DNA from: Rhodospirillales bacterium
Lineage (GTDB): Bacteria; Pseudomonadota; Alphaproteobacteria; TMED109
Direction of reading: 5' to 3'
Assembly: GCA_028824295.1 (NCBI GenBank)
Contig: JAPPED010000027.1
Coordinates: 1-64,000 of the forward strand
Length of the DNA: 64,000 nt
Positions 3,948 through 13,253 of the stretch are shown here, piece after piece. The translations under genes and the position numbers were made by a program. The notes beneath the pieces were generated by a model. The model worked only from the letters and a program-made list of their open reading frames with translations. It had not been told where the DNA came from and did not search any database. The stretch's first letter is position 1, and the number at the start of each line of letters is the position of its first letter.

Positions 3948-4385
3948 CTAAGGCTGCTTTCCGGCGGTCTCCGACGCCCGCCCGAGGGCGCCGACAGGCC
4001 GGTCGCCCAGCCCGTCGATGATCGGGCAGTCCGGCCTGTCGTCGCCCTTGCAGGCATCGACCAGGTGGGCGAGCTCGTCGTGCAGTGACTGCAATTCGCG
4101 CTGCTTCTTCGCGATCTCCTCCAGCCGCCTGGTCGCGATGCGCTTCACGTCAGCGCTCGACCGCCGCTGGTCCTCGTAGAGGCTCAGCAGTTCCCGGCAC
4201 TCGTCGATCGAGAAGCCGAACTCCCGCGCCCGGCGCACGAACACGAGCTTCCGCACGGCGCTCTCGTCGTAGGTCCTGTATCCCGTCTCCGAGCGGGACG
4301 GCGCCGATACCAGCCCGATGTCCGCATAGTAGCGGACCGTCTTCACCGGCAGGCCGGCTGCGTTCGAGGCGGCGGAAATATTCAC
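3948..4385 (-). CDS. cueR: Cu(I)-responsive MerR-family regulator CueR
   Basis: This 145-residue MerR-family protein has an N-terminal winged helix with VKTVRYYADIGL and a long dimerisation helix (about 75-108). The C-terminal metal-binding loop contains ACKGDDRPDC. The two cysteines fall at residues 112 and 120, the same spacing and position as the Cu(I) ligands of E. coli CueR. It lacks the extra cysteine pattern of mercury-type MerR. It should activate a promoter with an overlong spacer when Cu(I), Ag(I) or Au(I) binds. A matching promoter lies immediately upstream, facing the DUF4396 gene. The copper assignment is established for the family; its use here is inferred. Confidence 0.92.
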   Translation of the reverse strand: MNISAASNAAGLPVKTVRYYADIGLVSAPSRSETGYRTYDESAVRKLVFVRRAREFGFSIDECRELLSLYEDQRRSSADVKRIATRRLEEIAKKQRELQSLHDELAHLVDACKGDDRPDCPIIDGLGDRPVGALGRASETAGKQP

Positions 4386-4396
4386 CGGCGGCCCCC

Positions 4397-4427
4397 TTGA
4401 CCTTCCGGTTACTGGAGACCCTATGTT
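4397..4427 (+). promoter_or_regulatory. CueR-type promoter with 19-bp spacer
   Basis: A -35 box TTGACC (4397-4402) and a -10 box TATGTT (4422-4427) are separated by 19 bp, the overlong spacing of MerR-family promoters. Between them an imperfect dyad begins ACCTTCC and ends GGAGACC, resembling CueR operators. It points at the DUF4396 gene and lies 12 bp upstream of the cueR start, so it may serve both directions. Confidence 0.7.
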
Positions 4428-4458
4428 CCGAACAGGGACGGATCAAGAGGGTGTCCGC

Positions 4459-4905
4459 ATGACCGCCATCGCCGCGAGAGGGGCCATCGACTGGCGCAGC
4501 CGGCACACCTGGCGCCTGGCCTCGAAGAACACCGCTTGGTGCCTGCTCGGCTGCGTCATCGGCGATTTCGGCACCATCGCCTTTTTCCAGTTCACCGGCA
4601 TCCCCTGGCCGACGCTGGCGATCATGACCCTCGCCATCGTGAACGGGCTGCTGACCTCGATCGCGCTGGAGACCGTGATCCTGGTCCGCCAGATGGAATT
4701 GCGGACCGCCTGCCGGACCGCGATTGGAATGTCCTTCATCTCGATGATCGCCATGGAGGCGATGATGAACGGGGTCGACTGGATGCTGACTGGCGGGGCC
4801 AAGCTCACGTGGTGGGTCGTACCGATCATGCTAGCGGCGGGCTTCGTCACGCCGCTGCCCTACAACTACTGGCGCCTGAAGGCGCTCGGGCGGGCATGTC
4901 ACTGA
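4459..4905 (+). CDS. DUF4396 integral membrane protein
   Basis: The 148-residue product has about four hydrophobic segments and the family signature WRLASKNTAWCLLGCVIGDF near its start. I recognise the DUF4396 family, often seen beside copper oxidase or copper-export genes; no biochemical function is established to my knowledge. Start choice: an ATG at 4423 lies inside the -10 box of the CueR-type promoter, so it would precede the expected transcript start. The ATG at 4459 is preceded by AGAGGG and is preferred. It is the first gene under CueR control. Conserved cysteines and methionines in the membrane part would suit copper handling, but that is inference. Confidence 0.82.
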   Translation: MTAIAARGAIDWRSRHTWRLASKNTAWCLLGCVIGDFGTIAFFQFTGIPWPTLAIMTLAIVNGLLTSIALETVILVRQMELRTACRTAIGMSFISMIAMEAMMNGVDWMLTGGAKLTWWVVPIMLAAGFVTPLPYNYWRLKALGRACH

Positions 4906-4923
4906 AGCGGGCCGCGATCCCGT

Positions 4924-5398
4924 CCTGTCCCGCCGCTGGTCCACGTCATCTACGAACCCGGCGCCGATCGATGCGCCGATCCGGCCCCTGCCGACGGCGC
5001 GGGCTCCCGAGCCAGACCGAACCCGGGCGGTCCGCCTCACCCTCGTCATGCAGGGCGGCGCCATGGGCGGGCGACACATCGGCAGCGACTTGTGGGCCTT
5101 CAACGCCCGCTCGGGTTTGTCCGAAGCGCCGTGGCATCGCTTCGCCCGCGGCGAGACGGCCCTGATCATGCTGCGCACCGACACCGTGTTCCCGCACGGC
5201 ATCCACCTGCACGGCCACGATTTCCACGAGGTCTGGGACGACGGCGTCCTCGGTCACTGCCGGGACGCCACCCCGGTCGACCGGCGGGCGAGCCGCGACA
5301 TCCCTTGCGTGTCCGACAATCCCGGCAAATGGCTTCTGCATTGCCACACACTCGGCCACCAAGCATCCGGCATGAAGACTTGGGTGGAGGTGGCATGA
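4924..5398 (+). pseudogene. Multicopper oxidase, C-terminal remnant
   Basis: Only the last cupredoxin domain of a multicopper oxidase survives. It keeps the copper-ligand motifs HGIHLHGHDF and LLHCHTLGHQASGM, including the Cys of the type 1 site. Intact enzymes of this class have about 450-600 residues; here about 115-150 remain. Upstream of the first ATG (5048) the frame still reads as oxidase sequence (RAVRLTLVMQGGAMGG), and a piece resembling LVHVIYEPGADR near 4938-4973 lies in another frame. Both truncation and a frameshift are therefore likely. Two of the three cupredoxin domains and half of the trinuclear-site ligands are gone, so oxidase activity is not expected. Its stop overlaps the cytochrome c start by 4 nt. 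Confidence 0.75.
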
Positions 5399-5829
5399 TG
5401 CGCGCCCTGCTGCCGGTCGTCCTGCTCTGGCCCGCGCTGGCCCTCGCCGACCACGAACTCGACGACCGCGACATCCACAACGGGCAGATTCTGTACAGGG
5501 AGCACTGCGCCTCCTGTCACGGCGTCCGGCTCGAAGGGCAGCCGAACTGGCGGCGGCCGGGCGAGGACGGGCTCCTGCCGGCCCCGCCCCACGACGAAAC
5601 CGGCCATACTTGGCATCACGACAACCGGCTTCTGTTCGACTACACCAAACTCGGCGGCGCGGGCCTCATGGAGGCCAGGGGCATCGCCGGGTTCGAGAGC
5701 GGCATGCCGGGTCTCGGCGACGTCATGAGCGACGACGAGATCTGGGACGTCCTGGCGTACATCCGCTCGACCTGGCCCGAGCGCATCCGGGATATCCAAG
5801 CCAAGAGAAACCCGGAACACGGACGATGA
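5395..5829 (+). CDS. Exported monoheme c-type cytochrome
   Basis: The 144-residue product has a signal peptide (residues 1-18, MMRALLPVVLLWPALALA). A single heme-binding motif CASCH lies at residues 38-42, and a distal methionine candidate is in ESGMPGLGDVM. It should be a periplasmic electron carrier. The start ATG at 5395 overlaps the stop of the oxidase remnant; a second ATG at 5398 is equally possible. In intact loci of this type the cytochrome would accept or donate electrons near the multicopper oxidase, and CueR would induce both. Here the partner enzyme is broken, so the cytochrome may now be expressed without its redox partner. It is the last gene before the insertion-sequence region. 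Confidence 0.85.
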   Translation: MMRALLPVVLLWPALALADHELDDRDIHNGQILYREHCASCHGVRLEGQPNWRRPGEDGLLPAPPHDETGHTWHHDNRLLFDYTKLGGAGLMEARGIAGFESGMPGLGDVMSDDEIWDVLAYIRSTWPERIRDIQAKRNPEHGR

Positions 5830-6107
5830 CCAGATCTCGTCCTTCACGGCCCGGCGGATCGCCATCCGCGCGATAAGCGGAACCGGGGTTGAACCATCCG
5901 ACGCCTCCCTCCGGTACTAGCAATTGGGGGCAGCATCGACCACACCGACGAAGCTCGCGCCGAAGGCCGGAACCGCTGCCGGCGGCCCTATCCCGAAGCG
6001 CCGCCTGTTCATGCACTACGGCATGCCGGTCCGCCGCGTCGTCCCTGCGAGGGTTGCTCGGGAGGATCCTCGCCCGCAAATGACTCCGTTTGGCAAGCCA
6101 CGACAAC

Positions 6108-6133
6108 CGCAGAGCCCGAACGCAGAGCCCGAA
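6108..6133 (+). repeat. Tandem 13-bp duplication
   Basis: CGCAGAGCCCGAA occurs twice without a gap (6108-6120 and 6121-6133). It lies in non-coding DNA downstream of the transposase remnant and may be a slippage product or an insertion scar. Confidence 0.6.
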
Positions 6134-6245
6134 ACCGTGATGAGTGCGCAAACTGGGGACGGCCGCAGAAGCGCCCGGAACCCGGGCATCGCGTTCCGGA
6201 GGCGCGCCTCCCGCGAACTTCCGGAAGCCTGCTCAGCCGCCGTCG

Positions 6246-7454
6246 TCACCTCCCCCGAGCTCCGGCATGAGGCCTCCAGGGATCGGGCGTGCCGCGGCCG
6301 CGCTGTGGTGCCCGCCGGACACAGCGGATACCGCAGAGGACGATATGCGCTACCACCGCATCTGCCACGAGCTTCAGTCGGTCGTGATCGCCGGGCCTGC
6401 GCCGCTTCGGCCAGAGATGCTCCGCCTCGCACAGCGCCATGTGCACCGTGAACGTCAGGTCGCCCCGGGAGACTGGGATGTCGTGATCGGCCGGCATTGA
6501 GTTCGTCGCCCGGCAGCCAGCAGCGCGCGTACTTGCGGTAGGGCTCGGCCACGTCGAAGTCGCCAGACCTCACGGCATCGACCGCGACCTCGAACGGGTC
6601 GACGCGCTCATCGAGATTGACGTGCAGCCCCAGGATGAACCGACTGCCCGAGTTGACGGAGCAGTAACCGCTCAGGTCGACGTTGCGCCGGTCGAGACGG
6701 CTGGTCCAGTTCAGCGTGTAGTCCTGCCTGTCCGTCTCCAGGACGAGGTCCTTCGGGAACCGCAGGGTCTCGTCGATCAGCGCCCGGTCCACGGCGCCTG
6801 AGTAAGCGCGGCAGCGCGAATAGATGAAGTCGACAATGGGGTAGTACGCCTTCATGGACTTCAGCCGCACACCGCGTCCGGTGCCGCGCACCGGAGACTT
6901 GTTGGCGATCCGGCTCAACACATCTGCCGCCAGGGTCTGGTGCTCCGCATGTAGGCGGACCGGAAGCGATACAAGGACCTTCCTCCCACACGCCTTGCAC
7001 TGAAAGTACTGGCGGTCGCCCGAGGCCGGGCGACCGCGCCTGATGTAGGCCTCGGGGTGCAGGGCGATGGAGCGGCCGTGGTTCCTGCATGCTGGATTCC
7101 GGCAACTCACGGTCTCCTCCAGTCGCCACAGCCCGCCGGTGTCCGCGAACCGCTCGATCTCGGCGACAATGCAGGCGTTTGACTTTAGCTGCGGGCTCTC
7201 ATTGCACGCCTTGTAGCGGATGGAGGGCACCGTACCCTTGATGATGGTGCTGGCCAGCTTGTACGCGGGGTCCCTGCCTGCCGAGGGGCCGGTTTCGCGT
7301 GTCGGGTGCGCGCCGGCACGCGGAAGCTCCTGCAACTGGGCGCCCGGCAATGGTTGACCTGGATGATTCGTTCGTTTCCGAACAGATCCACGGATGCCGC
7401 CAGAGGCACGCGCGGGTGCTTCTTCTTGGGTGATGTGGTCTTGGCTCAGGGCAA
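6246..7454 (-). pseudogene. Zinc-ribbon insertion-sequence transposase, frameshifted (copy A)
   Basis: A transposase-like coding region is split over at least three frames. The N-terminal piece (to about 7275) reads PLAASVDLFGNERIIQVNHC, with a Cys-pair start. The middle part (about 7275-6500) carries a zinc-ribbon pattern (CRNPACRNHGR, then FQCKACGRK) and a catalytic-looking region with ETDRQDYTLNW. The end (about 6497-6246) continues in yet another frame with VSRGDLTFTVHMALCEAEHL. Against copy B at 10014, the expected start codon here is TTG (7454) and codon 3 is a TGA stop. Several independent lesions show an old, dead copy. I recognise it as an insertion-sequence protein but cannot assign the IS family. 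Flanking DNA from 5830 to 6246 holds no recognisable gene. Confidence 0.7.
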
Positions 7455-7934: not shown

Positions 7935-8084
7935 ATGCCCGGAGCCGACAACCCCAGAGCCCCGCTGGAGGCCTCAGTCACTCTCTTGAGGAAAACCAAG
8001 ACCATCCAGGTCAATCCGTGTCGCAACCCCAACTGCAAGCACTACGGCGTTCCCGCCCGGACCCGGACCGTCTGGAACGCATGA
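7935..8084 (+). pseudogene. IS transposase N-terminal fragment (copy D, opposite strand)
   Basis: A 49-codon frame encodes TKTIQVNPCRNPNCKHYGVPARTRT, cut by a stop after VWNA. It matches the N-terminal start of the transposases in copies A and B (IIQVNHC plus GVPARTR-like text) and keeps the paired cysteines better than they do. It lies on the opposite strand from copy A, 286 bp from the outer end of that copy. Everything after the first 49 residues is missing, so it is a fragment. The downstream bases lead directly to the 3' end of the dipeptidase-like gene. Confidence 0.65.
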
Positions 8085-8152: not shown

Positions 8153-9139
8153 CTACTTCCCCCAGACATCGCCCAGGAAGCGCAGCCAGTTCTCGCCGAG
8201 GACCTTGCGAATCCGGGTCTCGCTCCAGCCGCGGCGAACCATCGCGGCGGTCAGGTTACGGAACTCGCTGATGGTGGCGAGCCCCTTCGGCTGGTGCGGG
8301 ACCCGAGGCGTTCCCGGCATCAGCAGCCGCCCGTGACCCTTGTCGTGGCTAAGCCACTCGAAGAACGCGACATCCTGGTCCTGCGTGAAGTCGGTGCCGA
8401 TACCCACCGCGTCCTCGCCGGCCACATCGATCACGTACTCGAACACCTCGACGCACTGGTCCACCGTGGTCTCGTCGCCCCAGGGGAGGAACGGCGTGTA
8501 GGTCGCGACCCCGACGAAGCCGCCCCGCTCCACCACCGCCCGCATCTCGGCATCGGTCTTGTTGCGCGGGTGTTCCATGACTCCGCTGGGGCAGCAGTGG
8601 GTGTAGGCGACGGGCTTCGCCGAGTGGCTCACCGCGTCCGCGCTCGTCTTCGGACCCACGTGGGAGAGGTCGACGAGCACCCCGCACCGGTTCATCTCGT
8701 CGATCACGTCGCGACCGAAGTCTGACAGCCCCCCGTCGTGCGACTCCCAGCACCCGCTTCCCACGAGGTTCTGCGTGTTGTAGGTGAGCTGCATCACTCG
8801 CACCCCGAGGTCACGGAACACCTCGACGAACTCGGCCTTGTCCTCAAGCGCCGAGGTGTTCTGCCAGCCGAGGATGATGCCGGTGCGCCCCTCCCGCTTC
8901 GCGCGCCGGATGTCGTCGGTGCCGTGCACCTGCAGGAGCAGGTCGTCGTGCTCGCCAAACCATCGCTTCCACCGCGCGACGTTCTCCATCGTAACCCGGA
9001 ACCCTTCCCAGACCGAGCAGGTGCAGTTCGCAGCGGTCACCCCGCCCGCGCGCATCTCCTCGAACACGGAGCGGCTCCACCTGGAAATGATCAGTCCGTC
9101 GACCAGAATCGCGCCATCGTGAAGGTCAACCGGGTTCAT
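8153..9139 (-). CDS. Membrane-dipeptidase (M19) family protein, atypical metal site
   Basis: The 328-residue product follows the M19 renal-dipeptidase fold. It keeps the second-half signatures LVDLSHVGPKTS, AYTHCCPSGV, EHPRNKTD and GIGTDFTQD, which carry two His ligands, an Arg and an Asp. The N-terminal position that should read His-x-Asp instead reads DGLIISRW, and the bridging Glu region reads GIILGWQNTS. Two of the usual zinc-ligand sites are therefore absent, and the reaction may not be dipeptide hydrolysis. ATG 9139 is preferred because GGAGATGTCGGA lies just upstream; an ATG at 9223 would add an unrelated N-terminus. No signal peptide is evident. It is flanked by IS and GMC remnants and has no operon partner. 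Confidence 0.8.
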   Translation of the reverse strand: MNPVDLHDGAILVDGLIISRWSRSVFEEMRAGGVTAANCTCSVWEGFRVTMENVARWKRWFGEHDDLLLQVHGTDDIRRAKREGRTGIILGWQNTSALEDKAEFVEVFRDLGVRVMQLTYNTQNLVGSGCWESHDGGLSDFGRDVIDEMNRCGVLVDLSHVGPKTSADAVSHSAKPVAYTHCCPSGVMEHPRNKTDAEMRAVVERGGFVGVATYTPFLPWGDETTVDQCVEVFEYVIDVAGEDAVGIGTDFTQDQDVAFFEWLSHDKGHGRLLMPGTPRVPHQPKGLATISEFRNLTAAMVRRGWSETRIRKVLGENWLRFLGDVWGK

Positions 9140-9407: not shown

Positions 9408-9917
9408 ATGACGGCGCCTGCGCGCTACGACTACATCGTCGTCGGTGCCGGATCGGCGGGGGCGGTGCTGGCCGCGCGGCTGAGCGAGGTGCCGCGCAAC
9501 CGCGTGCTGCTGCTCGAAGCTGGCCGGGCCCGCCATCCCCTGTCGCGCCTGCCGGTGAGCTTTGGGTTGTTCATCGACCATCCAGGCGTCAACTGGCGTT
9601 ACGTTTCCGACCCCGAGCCCGGAACGGCGAACCGCACGATCCCCGTGCCTCGCGGCAAGCTTCTTGGTGGTTCCTCGTCGATCAACGGCCTCGTCTACGT
9701 ACGCGGCCAGCCGCTCGACTACGACACATGGTCGCAGTTCGGCAACCGCGGCTGGGGCTGGGCCGACGTGGCGCCGGTCTTCGAGCGCATGGAGGACTAT
9801 CGCGGCGGTGGCAAGGGGCGCGGCTCCGGCGGGCCGCTTGGCGTCTCCGAGGTGCCCGACCGCAACCCGCTCTACGATGCCTGGTTCGCCGCTGCCGGGG
9901 CGCTCGGCAATGGTTGA
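9408..9917 (+). pseudogene. GMC oxidoreductase, N-terminal half cut by IS remnant
   Basis: The 169 codons give the FAD-binding start of a GMC (choline/alcohol dehydrogenase type) flavoenzyme. They include the Rossmann motif YIVVGAGSAGAVLAARLSE (about residues 9-27) and the GMC signature PRGKLLGGSSSINGLVYVRG (about 84-103). Intact enzymes have about 530 residues and end with a His/Asn active-site domain, all missing here. Homology stops at about 9903, where the IS-like repeat begins with GGCAATGGTTGACCTG and supplies an accidental stop. The flavoenzyme was therefore truncated by insertion plus deletion. The surviving piece lacks the catalytic domain and should be inactive. Confidence 0.85.
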
Positions 9918-10835: not shown

Positions 10836-13253
10836 ATGGTCATGCCCGCCCCGCCTTCCCACGCGTCCATCGTCATCGTCGGTGGCGGCATCATCGGCCT
10901 GAGCCTCGCCTACCACCTGGCGCGACGGGGCCGTGAAGGCGTGGTACTTCTGGAGCGCCGGCAATTCACGTGCGGCACCACCTGGCACGCCGCTGGCCTC
11001 GTGCGCTCTGCCGCTCCGTACCCTGCGCTCGCCGCGATTCTTGCCGATTCGGCGCGCCTCTACGCCGAACTGGAGTCCGAGACCGGCCAAGCGACCGGAT
11101 TCCGCCAGACCGGCTCGATCTACACCGCCAGCAACGCGGAACGCTGGGCCGAGTTGCAACGCGCGGCCGCAAGCGCGCGTGCCCTGGGAGCCGAAGTGGA
11201 GCTTTGCACGCCGGATGACCTCAAGTGTGTCTGGCCGCTCCTCCGTGTGGACGATCTGATTGGTGGGAGTTTCTTTGCTGGCGATGGCCAGACCAATCCC
11301 GCCGACACTGCTGCCGCCCTCGCCAAGGGCGCTCGGCAGGCCGGCGCGCAACTGCTGGAAAACGTGACGGTCACCGGGATTCGCACGGCTGACGGCCGCG
11401 TCACCGGCATCGAGACGGAGGCCGGCGCGATCGCGACGGACTGCGTCGCCAACTGTGCCGGCATGTGGGCACGCCAGATCGGACTCATGGCCGGCACCGC
11501 CGTGCCGCTGCACGCGGCTGAACACTTCTATGTCGTGACGGAACCGAAGCCGGATATTGTGCCCGGTCTCCCGGTCATGCGTGACCAGGACGGCTCCATC
11601 TATTTCAAGGAGGACGCCGGCAAACTGCTGATCGGGGCCTTCGAGCCGGTCGCCAAGCCATGGGGCATGGATGGCATTCCGGACGATTTCTGTTTCGACC
11701 AGCTGCCCGACGACTGGGACCATTTCGAGCCGATGCTGGAAGCGGCACTGCACCGTATTCCGGCGCTCCACGACATCGGCATCCGCACGTTCTTCAACGG
11801 GCCGGAGAGCTTCACGCCCGATCAGGCGTTTCATCTTGGCCCCGCCGGCAACGTCGAGGGCTTTTGGATCGCCGCCGGCTTCAATTCGATCGGAATCCAA
11901 GCGGCAGGGGGCGTTGGCCAACGGCTCGCTGAATGGATCGAGGAAGGCGTGCCTCCCTGCGACCTCTCGGCCTTCGACCCGCGCCGCATGCAGCCGTTCC
12001 AGAACGCCAAGTCCTACCTGAAGACCCGCGTCAGTGAGGCGCTCGGGCTGCTCTATGCCATGCACTGGCCCTACCGTCAGTTCGAGACCGCGCGTGACCA
12101 GCGACAATCTCCCGTGCACGAGGTGCTGGCTCAGGCCGGCGCGTGTTTCGGCGAGGTCGCCGGCTGGGAACGCGCCAATTGGTTTGCGTCGCCCGGTCAA
12201 GAACCGGCCTACGTCTACAGCTACGGTCGCCAGAACTGGTTCGGGGCAAGCGCCGCCGAACATCGTCGCGTCCGCGAAGCCACCGGCGTCTTCGACCTCA
12301 CGTCCTTCGGCAAGTTTCTCGTGGAAGGTCCGGATGCCGAGGCGCTGCTTCAATGGGTTTCCGCGAATGACGTGGGCGGCCCGCCCGGCAGCGTCATCTA
12401 CACGCAATGGCTGAATGCCGCTGCCGGCATCGAGGCGGACCTCACGGTCACCCGCCTGACCGACACGCGGTACTTGGTCGTGTCCGCGGCCGCCACGGCG
12501 GCACGCGATCTCGCCCGGCTGCGCGCGGAGGCGCGAGACCGGCGCGTGGAAATCATCGACGCGACCGAATCCTGGGCGGTGTTTGCCGTGATGGGGCCCG
12601 GGTCGCGCGCGCTGCTGCAGCCGCTGACGTCGGCCGATCTTGCGGGTCCGGCGTTTCCCTTTGCCGCTTCGCGGAAGATCGAATTGGCAGGGGTGCCCGT
12701 CCGCGCATCGCGAATCAGCTACGTCGGCGAACTTGGCTGGGAACTCTACGTGCCATGGAATGAAGCCGAGCGCGTATTCGCGGCGCTACGGGAGGTCGGT
12801 GCGACGCAAGCGGGCATGCATGCGCTCGACAGCCTGCGCATCGAGAAGGCTTACCGTCACTGGGGTCACGACATCGCTCCGTCCGACACTCCGCTCGAGG
12901 CCGGCCTCGGATTTGCGGTGAAGCCCGATGCGAAAGAGTTCCTCGGACGCGACGCTTACCTCCGCGCCCGGGACGCCCGTCCCACCCGGAGAATGATGCA
13001 GTTTCGGTTGCGGGATCCGGAGCCCCTGTTGTTTGGCCACGAGCCGATCCTCGCGGATGGCCGGACGGCGGGCACGCTCACCTCCGGAAGCTACGGGCAC
13101 ACGCTGGGCGGCGCCGTGGGCTTGGGCTACGTCCCCGCAGAGATGCTCGACGCCACGGACTTCGCCATCAACGTCGCTGGCACGATCGTCCTCGCGGACG
13201 CCTCCCTCCGCCCCCTGTACGATCCGGCCGGCACCAGAATGCGCGATACCTGA
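10836..13253 (+). CDS. FAD-dependent dimethylglycine/sarcosine dehydrogenase-like protein
   Basis: The 805-residue product has the architecture of mitochondrial-type dimethylglycine dehydrogenase. It starts with an FAD-binding Rossmann motif (IVIVGGGIIGLSLAYHLA, about 12-29). The segment TTWHAAG carries His51, the usual covalent FAD attachment site. A substrate domain follows to about 400, and a GcvT-like folate-binding half occupies about 430-800 (for example YVGELGWELYVPW). The expected reaction is oxidative N-demethylation of a methylated glycine, passing the one-carbon unit to tetrahydrofolate. It would act in the cytoplasm in glycine betaine or sarcosine breakdown. ATG 10836 and ATG 10842 are both possible starts. 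No operon partner is adjacent, and the exact substrate is not decided by sequence. Confidence 0.88.
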   Translation: MVMPAPPSHASIVIVGGGIIGLSLAYHLARRGREGVVLLERRQFTCGTTWHAAGLVRSAAPYPALAAILADSARLYAELESETGQATGFRQTGSIYTASNAERWAELQRAAASARALGAEVELCTPDDLKCVWPLLRVDDLIGGSFFAGDGQTNPADTAAALAKGARQAGAQLLENVTVTGIRTADGRVTGIETEAGAIATDCVANCAGMWARQIGLMAGTAVPLHAAEHFYVVTEPKPDIVPGLPVMRDQDGSIYFKEDAGKLLIGAFEPVAKPWGMDGIPDDFCFDQLPDDWDHFEPMLEAALHRIPALHDIGIRTFFNGPESFTPDQAFHLGPAGNVEGFWIAAGFNSIGIQAAGGVGQRLAEWIEEGVPPCDLSAFDPRRMQPFQNAKSYLKTRVSEALGLLYAMHWPYRQFETARDQRQSPVHEVLAQAGACFGEVAGWERANWFASPGQEPAYVYSYGRQNWFGASAAEHRRVREATGVFDLTSFGKFLVEGPDAEALLQWVSANDVGGPPGSVIYTQWLNAAAGIEADLTVTRLTDTRYLVVSAAATAARDLARLRAEARDRRVEIIDATESWAVFAVMGPGSRALLQPLTSADLAGPAFPFAASRKIELAGVPVRASRISYVGELGWELYVPWNEAERVFAALREVGATQAGMHALDSLRIEKAYRHWGHDIAPSDTPLEAGLGFAVKPDAKEFLGRDAYLRARDARPTRRMMQFRLRDPEPLLFGHEPILADGRTAGTLTSGSYGHTLGGAVGLGYVPAEMLDATDFAINVAGTIVLADASLRPLYDPAGTRMRDT

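Follow-up and report, generated by a model that had tools for sequence, protein, structure and literature searches.

A widespread branch of M19 "membrane dipeptidases" that lacks most classical metal ligands and is predicted to have a different active site

A large, widespread, and conserved branch of the proteins called "membrane dipeptidases" appears, from its aligned residues, to have an active site different from that of the classical enzymes of peptidase family M19. Public records label its genes as (membrane) dipeptidase, though their products lack most of the metal ligands. The member studied here is encoded in the window, i.e., the whole stretch of 64,000 nucleotides of Rhodospirillales bacterium DNA that was analyzed (contig JAPPED010000027.1). 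The loss of ligands is a trait of the whole branch and not an oddity of the window gene. No report of it was found in the literature searched, which fell short of most subscription journals.

The window gene and its lost metal ligands

The M19-fold coding sequence P0001 is an uninterrupted open reading frame (ORF) of 328 amino acids, from ATG to stop, at positions 8153 to 9139 on the minus strand. Its start codon, the ATG at 9139, fits the orthologues because the matches of relatives L003 to L009 begin at the same methionine, residue 1 of the window protein. No N-terminal signal sequence was apparent by eye, and the protein is probably cytoplasmic. The dN/dS ratios against L003 to L008 were 0.115–0.172, and the gene is therefore functional; against L013 (69% identical), the ratio was 0.328. 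The surroundings of the gene are disturbed, since an adjoining GMC (choline-dehydrogenase-like) oxidoreductase gene (9408-9917, 0.3 kb from the M19 gene) is cut short and corresponds to just residues 1 to 186 of the 551-residue open frame in L003, a 98% relative. The M19 gene is maintained by purifying selection despite these surroundings.

The window protein matched Pfam Peptidase_M19 with 281.7 bits against a cut-off of 26 (E 9.7e-84), and the match begins at protein residue 24 and profile position 37, i.e., past the His-x-Asp (HxD) motif. No NCBIfam match was found at E 0.001. In renal dipeptidase, we take the metal ligands to be H20, D22, E125 (bridging), H198, and H219, the last two as ligands of the second metal site, and Asp288 is presumably the classical general base. 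An alignment with dipeptidase 1 placed E125, H152, H198, H219, R230, and D288 at Q93, Y120, H160, H181, R192, and D250 of the window protein, and a multiple alignment that included L001, the canonical M19 paralogue (IDTHID) of the same genome, placed H20 and D22 at L16 and I18. Three of the five classical zinc ligands are lost (H20 to L16, D22 to I18, and E125 to Q93), and the protein reads L, I, Q, H, and H at the five places. On the minus strand, the codons of L16-I17-I18, at the place of HxD, lie at 9086..9094; those of Q93-N94, with Q93 at the place of the bridging Glu125, at 8858..8863; and those of Y120-N121, with Y120 at the place of His152, at 8777..8782. The second-site His pair, the arginine, and the base are retained as His160 (8660..8662), His181 (8597..8599), Arg192 (8564..8566), and Asp250 (8390..8392). 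The classical dizinc-type dipeptidase reaction seems unlikely for such a protein.

An earlier note on this DNA had quoted DGLIISRW at the N-terminus and GWQNTS in the region of the bridging Glu. Both are present as quoted, and with three of five ligands lost, its wording that half of the expected ligands were missing was fair. Alignment with a characterized M19 enzyme (dipeptidase 1) and with the orthologues confirmed the substitutions and their conservation across the branch. The change from His152 to Y120 was absent from the note; it is a weaker feature than the ligands, as Trp occupies this place in 9 of 24 canonical rows of the alignment described below.

Structure model and the solved relative 2i5g

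An AF2 model of the window protein was built from 56 aligned relatives (alignment A1, 56 of 79 sequences) and had a pLDDT of 97.4 and a pTM of 0.94. The closest solved structure was 2i5g, an "amidohydrolase" from P. aeruginosa whose structure dates from 2006. It matched the model at Z 55.1, with 53% identity and an rmsd of 0.9 Å over 325 residues, and we take it to be encoded by PA5396, which neighbors dgcA. Other M19 structures gave Z scores of 37.0–40.9 to the model, as for an M19 dipeptidase barrel, and everything else gave at most 17.2; a Foldseek search was also run. Renal dipeptidase/dipeptidase 1 (1ITQ, 9H0B) and Sco3058 (3ID7), of MEROPS M19, share the fold (Z ~40, rmsd 1.8; 1itq, Z 40.2), the second-site His pair, Arg230, and Asp288 with the window protein. 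However, they have E125 and H152 where it has Q and Y, and presumably also H20 and D22 where it has L and I.

By contrast, 2i5g shares both the fold and the substitutions (DGLIIAKW, GFQN, CYNTQN, SHVG, SHCLPSG, HPRNK, and GTDF), and a solved member of the ligand-poor branch therefore exists. Its motifs are those of a dgcAB-linked sister branch, whereas the window protein lies on a branch without dgcAB linkage. The loss of the dizinc center, which the earlier note had proposed, is supported by the sequence, by the branch-wide pattern, and by the AF2 model together with 2i5g. The further suggestion that the protein may be a single-metal enzyme or have a new reaction is kept here as the leading reading.

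Ligand loss across the branch

The window protein, used as the query against genome contigs, found 78 loci, and further M19 proteins were taken from 100 genomes of the phylum. The joint alignment contained 118 M19 rows; L053, L061, and L075, which are frameshifted or truncated, were excluded from the residue counts. Ligand-poor sequences of the Tyr120 type made up 89 of the 118 rows (88 with Gln-Tyr and one with His-Tyr at the E125/H152 places), a share that is not a frequency, as most rows came from the search seeded with the window protein. Canonical rows numbered 24, all with Glu at the E125 place and with His (15 rows) or Trp (9 rows) at the 152 place. Since this second place varies among canonical rows, the metal ligands are the stronger mark. 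Four rows were intermediate, with Glu kept and Tyr-Asn at the 152 place (L068, L077, L110, and L120), and one, L079, was exceptional in having Gln with His. The phylum sample is fairer in this respect: among its 41 M19 proteins, 20 were canonical, 19 were of the Gln type, and 2 were intermediates (41 of the 43 M19 genes above the cut-off were extracted, and two G066 genes on contig 3 were left out).

In the ligand-poor rows, His160, His181, Arg192, Asp250, and Asp157 were invariant (89 of 89), as was Y120; N121 and Q93 were each found in 88 rows, N94 in 76, T40 and Q117 in 82 each, and L16 in 79 of 87. The His of HxD was present in all 16 canonical rows that cover that place. The window protein belongs to this "QYN" branch, having Gln93, Tyr120, and Asn121, no HxD, and the kept residues His160, His181, Arg192, and Asp250. 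In the loop before GLS, C130 (81 of 89), E132 (84 of 89), and D135 (82 of 89) were also conserved, and in each of these columns the canonical rows most often have another residue. Both observations would suit a protein in which Cys130, Glu132, or Asp135 rebuilds the metal center, i.e., a metallohydrolase, perhaps a metallopeptidase, whose site is rearranged; we regard such a rebuilt center as distinctly unlikely.

A decaying gene or a sequencing artifact might be suspected from the cut GMC gene and from transposase-like ORFs seen nearby by eye. It is barely credible, given the low dN/dS to L003 to L008 and the presence of the same residues in scores of relatives. The pattern is not one of chance or decay, because the residues are near-invariant in 89 rows and dN/dS is low. 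On the same grounds (dN/dS of 0.115–0.172 and residues conserved across the 89 rows), a degenerate gene was ruled out.

Trees were built from 86 and from 50 of the 118 rows, the latter after near copies and the longest branches had been removed. In the careful 50-row tree, from which the ligand columns were excluded, a branch with support of 99/96 parted the canonical rows from the Tyr-Asn rows. The Gln type formed a clade apart from the intermediates in 53% of 200 bootstrap trees of these 50 rows. In the quick 86-row tree, the long-branch Gln rows L130 and L134 grouped with the intermediates, and Gln needs four changes. The intermediates L110 and L120 keep the His of HxD and have lost its Asp, a pattern that suggests, on an unrooted tree, a stepwise change of the active site. 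L079 (2944-4014) lies on the canonical side of the tree and has Gln in place of the bridging Glu and His at the 152 place. Its Gln is a separate, independent change.

Gene neighborhoods of the sister branches

A close 2i5g-type protein (at least 78% identity to L101) was carried by 8 of 150 genomes of the phylum, which come from three families and hence are not independent. The same eight genomes were exactly those with a DgcA of at least 62% identity, and none was found among the other genomes of the 150. DgcA was scored on seven first-look candidates per genome at E 1e-150, and weaker DgcA-like matches (40–51%) in other genomes were not counted as DgcA. In all eight carriers, the 2i5g-type gene lies directly upstream of dgcA; both are on one strand, and the ~580–870 bp that separate them fit DUF5943. 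Two named records have the order glyA-M19-DUF5943-dgcA-dgcB-etfA, with gbcA nearby.

The accessible part of one publication (PMC12093977) reports a pepD_hp_dgcAB_fixAB cluster in Vibrio natriegens and P. aeruginosa, in which the gene for a "predicted dipeptidase" near dgcAB is named pepD. This part reports deletions of dgcA and gbcA; it neither describes a test of pepD nor mentions the metal ligands. By gene order, pepD of V. natriegens occupies the same place as the ligand-poor M19 proteins. In the accessible portions of three papers on dgcA (PMC12093977, PMC3691474, and PMC7574528), a dipeptidase is mentioned only in the first.

The D[GNA]LQY sister branch was represented by 10 loci (L117, L119, L121 to L126, L128, and L129). 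A 576-aa family was found at 9 of the 10, a BCCT (betaine/carnitine/choline) transporter at 6, and an aldehyde dehydrogenase directly upstream at 5. These loci carry a recurring uncharacterized operon with LysR, aldehyde dehydrogenase, ligand-poor M19, BCCT transporter, 576-aa family, and DUF3726 genes, and the observation covers L135 (4536-12057), L136 (1879-9584), and L142 (3494-6990) too. Ruegeria and Pseudomonas records have the LysR-aldehyde dehydrogenase-M19-BCCT arrangement with DUF3726, and their "hypothetical" neighbors are members of the 576-aa family (40% and 52% identity, respectively). A Variovorax member of another, more distant ligand-poor branch adjoins the 576-aa family too (32%). 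One representative of this family had no match in Pfam (1e-6), NCBIfam (1e-10), or PDB sequences (E 1), and two M19 members of the sister branches had no NCBIfam match (E 1e-10). The operon probably serves to break down a quaternary-nitrogen solute that the cell imports. In the methylated-amine loci of the two sister branches, no role is assigned to the M19 protein, DUF5943, DUF3726, or the 576-aa family.

Sixteen relatives in named plasmid records were all ligand-poor (16 of 16), and the contexts of the named ligand-poor relatives vary widely. In one, the M19 gene directly follows soxBDAG; in another, it accompanies genes annotated as hydroxyacyl-CoA dehydrogenase, 3-keto-5-aminohexanoate cleavage protein, and thioesterase, a cluster that we read from these annotations as carnitine-type. 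Single settings contained DUF5943 with solA on the opposite strand; a TRAP transporter with an FAD oxidoreductase and ethanolamine ammonia-lyase; a flavin oxidoreductase with an ABC transporter; TRAP and M81 peptidase genes; an oligopeptide ABC transporter with a C39 peptidase; and tripartite tricarboxylate transporter genes. Branched-chain-type ABC transporters also stood beside M19, a haloarchaeon had an acetamidase/formamidase gene with two peptidase genes, and one setting was without annotation.

Context of the window's own branch

For the window's own branch, up to three predicted genes flanking each of 27 loci on either side were compared; proteins of more than 900 aa or with unknown letters were excluded. 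No conserved neighbors were found, and no Pfam family occurred in more than 6 of the 137 neighbor proteins at these loci. The commonest were CoA-transferase III (6) and class III aminotransferase, amidohydrolases, and luciferase-like monooxygenase (4 each). In the window itself, the neighbors differ from DUF5943-dgcA-dgcB, and no close DgcA was found in the genome among the 7 of 17 candidates that were scored. A gene of the dimethylglycine/sarcosine-dehydrogenase type (DAO + FAO_M + GCV_T) lies at 10836-13253, 1.7 kb from the M19 gene. Together with the GMC gene, it fits the theme of the sister branches, as one instance.

Putative function of the ligand-poor branch

The window protein is most likely a catabolic enzyme with at most one metal at His160/His181 and with Asp250 as the base, as judged from its residues. 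In the mechanism that we propose, the first metal site and the bridging carboxylate would have been lost in the branch, and another conserved set (Leu16, Gln93-Asn94, Tyr120-Asn121, Cys130, Glu132, and Asp135) would have taken their place. Because the first-site ligands and the bridging carboxylate are gone, His160 and His181 would bind at most one metal, or none. Asp250 would activate water or a substrate group, and Tyr120, Asn121, and Gln93-Asn94 would hold and polarize the substrate, replacing His152 and Glu125. Rather than a dipeptide, the substrate is probably a small compound with an N-methylated or quaternary nitrogen, or else a by-product formed when such a compound is demethylated or broken down. 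This substrate class is guessed from context and, for the window's own branch, is a weak extrapolation.

The linkage of the sister branches to methylated-amine catabolism loci counts for the catabolic reading. On the other side, the lack of conserved neighbors on the own branch and the absence of a close DgcA among the scored candidates of the window genome count against the proposed explanation, as do the widely varying contexts of the named relatives. Several relatives beside oligopeptide ABC transporters or peptidase genes would also fit a peptide-like substrate. Taken as a whole, the explanation, i.e., a functional catabolic enzyme on the M19 barrel with at most one metal, a rebuilt site, and a small substrate of the N-methylated or quaternary-nitrogen type, is held tentatively, with slightly less than even confidence.

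Several proteins suggest by analogy that such a fold can work or persist without a full dinuclear center. E. coli NagA is an amidohydrolase with one metal, LigI is a metal-independent lactonase of the amidohydrolase superfamily, and human DPEP3 has Tyr for His and is inactive, although each of the three loses another set of residues. As in LigI, no metal may be needed at all, and His160, His181, Arg192, and Asp250 would then act in direct acid-base catalysis; the reaction could be hydrolysis, isomerization, or elimination. Two His and one Gln make a poor metal site, and the four residues, found in 89 of 89 rows, must be doing something. However, the simplest explanation for a His pair placed precisely at the second-site positions is a metal. 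We consider this metal-free catalysis rather unlikely.

The old enzyme fold might also have been kept by a protein whose role is accessory or non-catalytic. PvdM, a pyoverdine maturation factor, is such an accessory protein, and its structure (3B40), aligned to the genome's canonical M19 protein L001, shows lost ligands, with R and T at HxD, L at E125, Y at H152, and Q at H198. Like the window protein, it thus combines the M19 fold with a loss of metal ligands and has Tyr at the H152 position. However, it has also lost H198, which the window protein keeps, and its sequence resembles that of the genome's canonical M19 protein (it is the best match of L001) more closely than that of the window protein. 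The kept polar active-site set (H, H, R, and D) and the new conserved residues are unlike a dead site, and parts of the ligand-poor branch occur in catabolic operons. An accessory role is therefore improbable.

Returning to the catabolic reading, it can be extended to the branch at large. A branch of "membrane dipeptidases" so large that it takes in about half of the M19 proteins of the phylum sample may have given up the dinuclear center and become a new metal-poor or metal-free enzyme class. Such enzymes would contribute an undescribed step to the catabolism of quaternary-nitrogen solutes such as betaine, dimethylglycine, and carnitine, for example by hydrolyzing a by-product that is N-acylated or derived from formaldehyde. 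We regard this extension as doubtful on balance. With the solved 2i5g, a ligand-loss branch that has intermediates, and an operon in culturable bacteria, the question is directly testable.

Other features of the window

An ORF at 6016-7350 has a CRNPAC...CKAC finger, which by eye is typical of transposases. Just downstream of the M19 gene, on the opposite strand, a short piece with a similar CRNPNC motif that ends in a stop was seen at 7962-8083. The M19 gene may lie between mobile-element remnants. Farther off, at 3948-5829, a MerR-type regulator, a C-terminal piece of a multicopper oxidase, and a c-type cytochrome ORF were seen by eye close together, and this cluster is possibly involved in copper handling.
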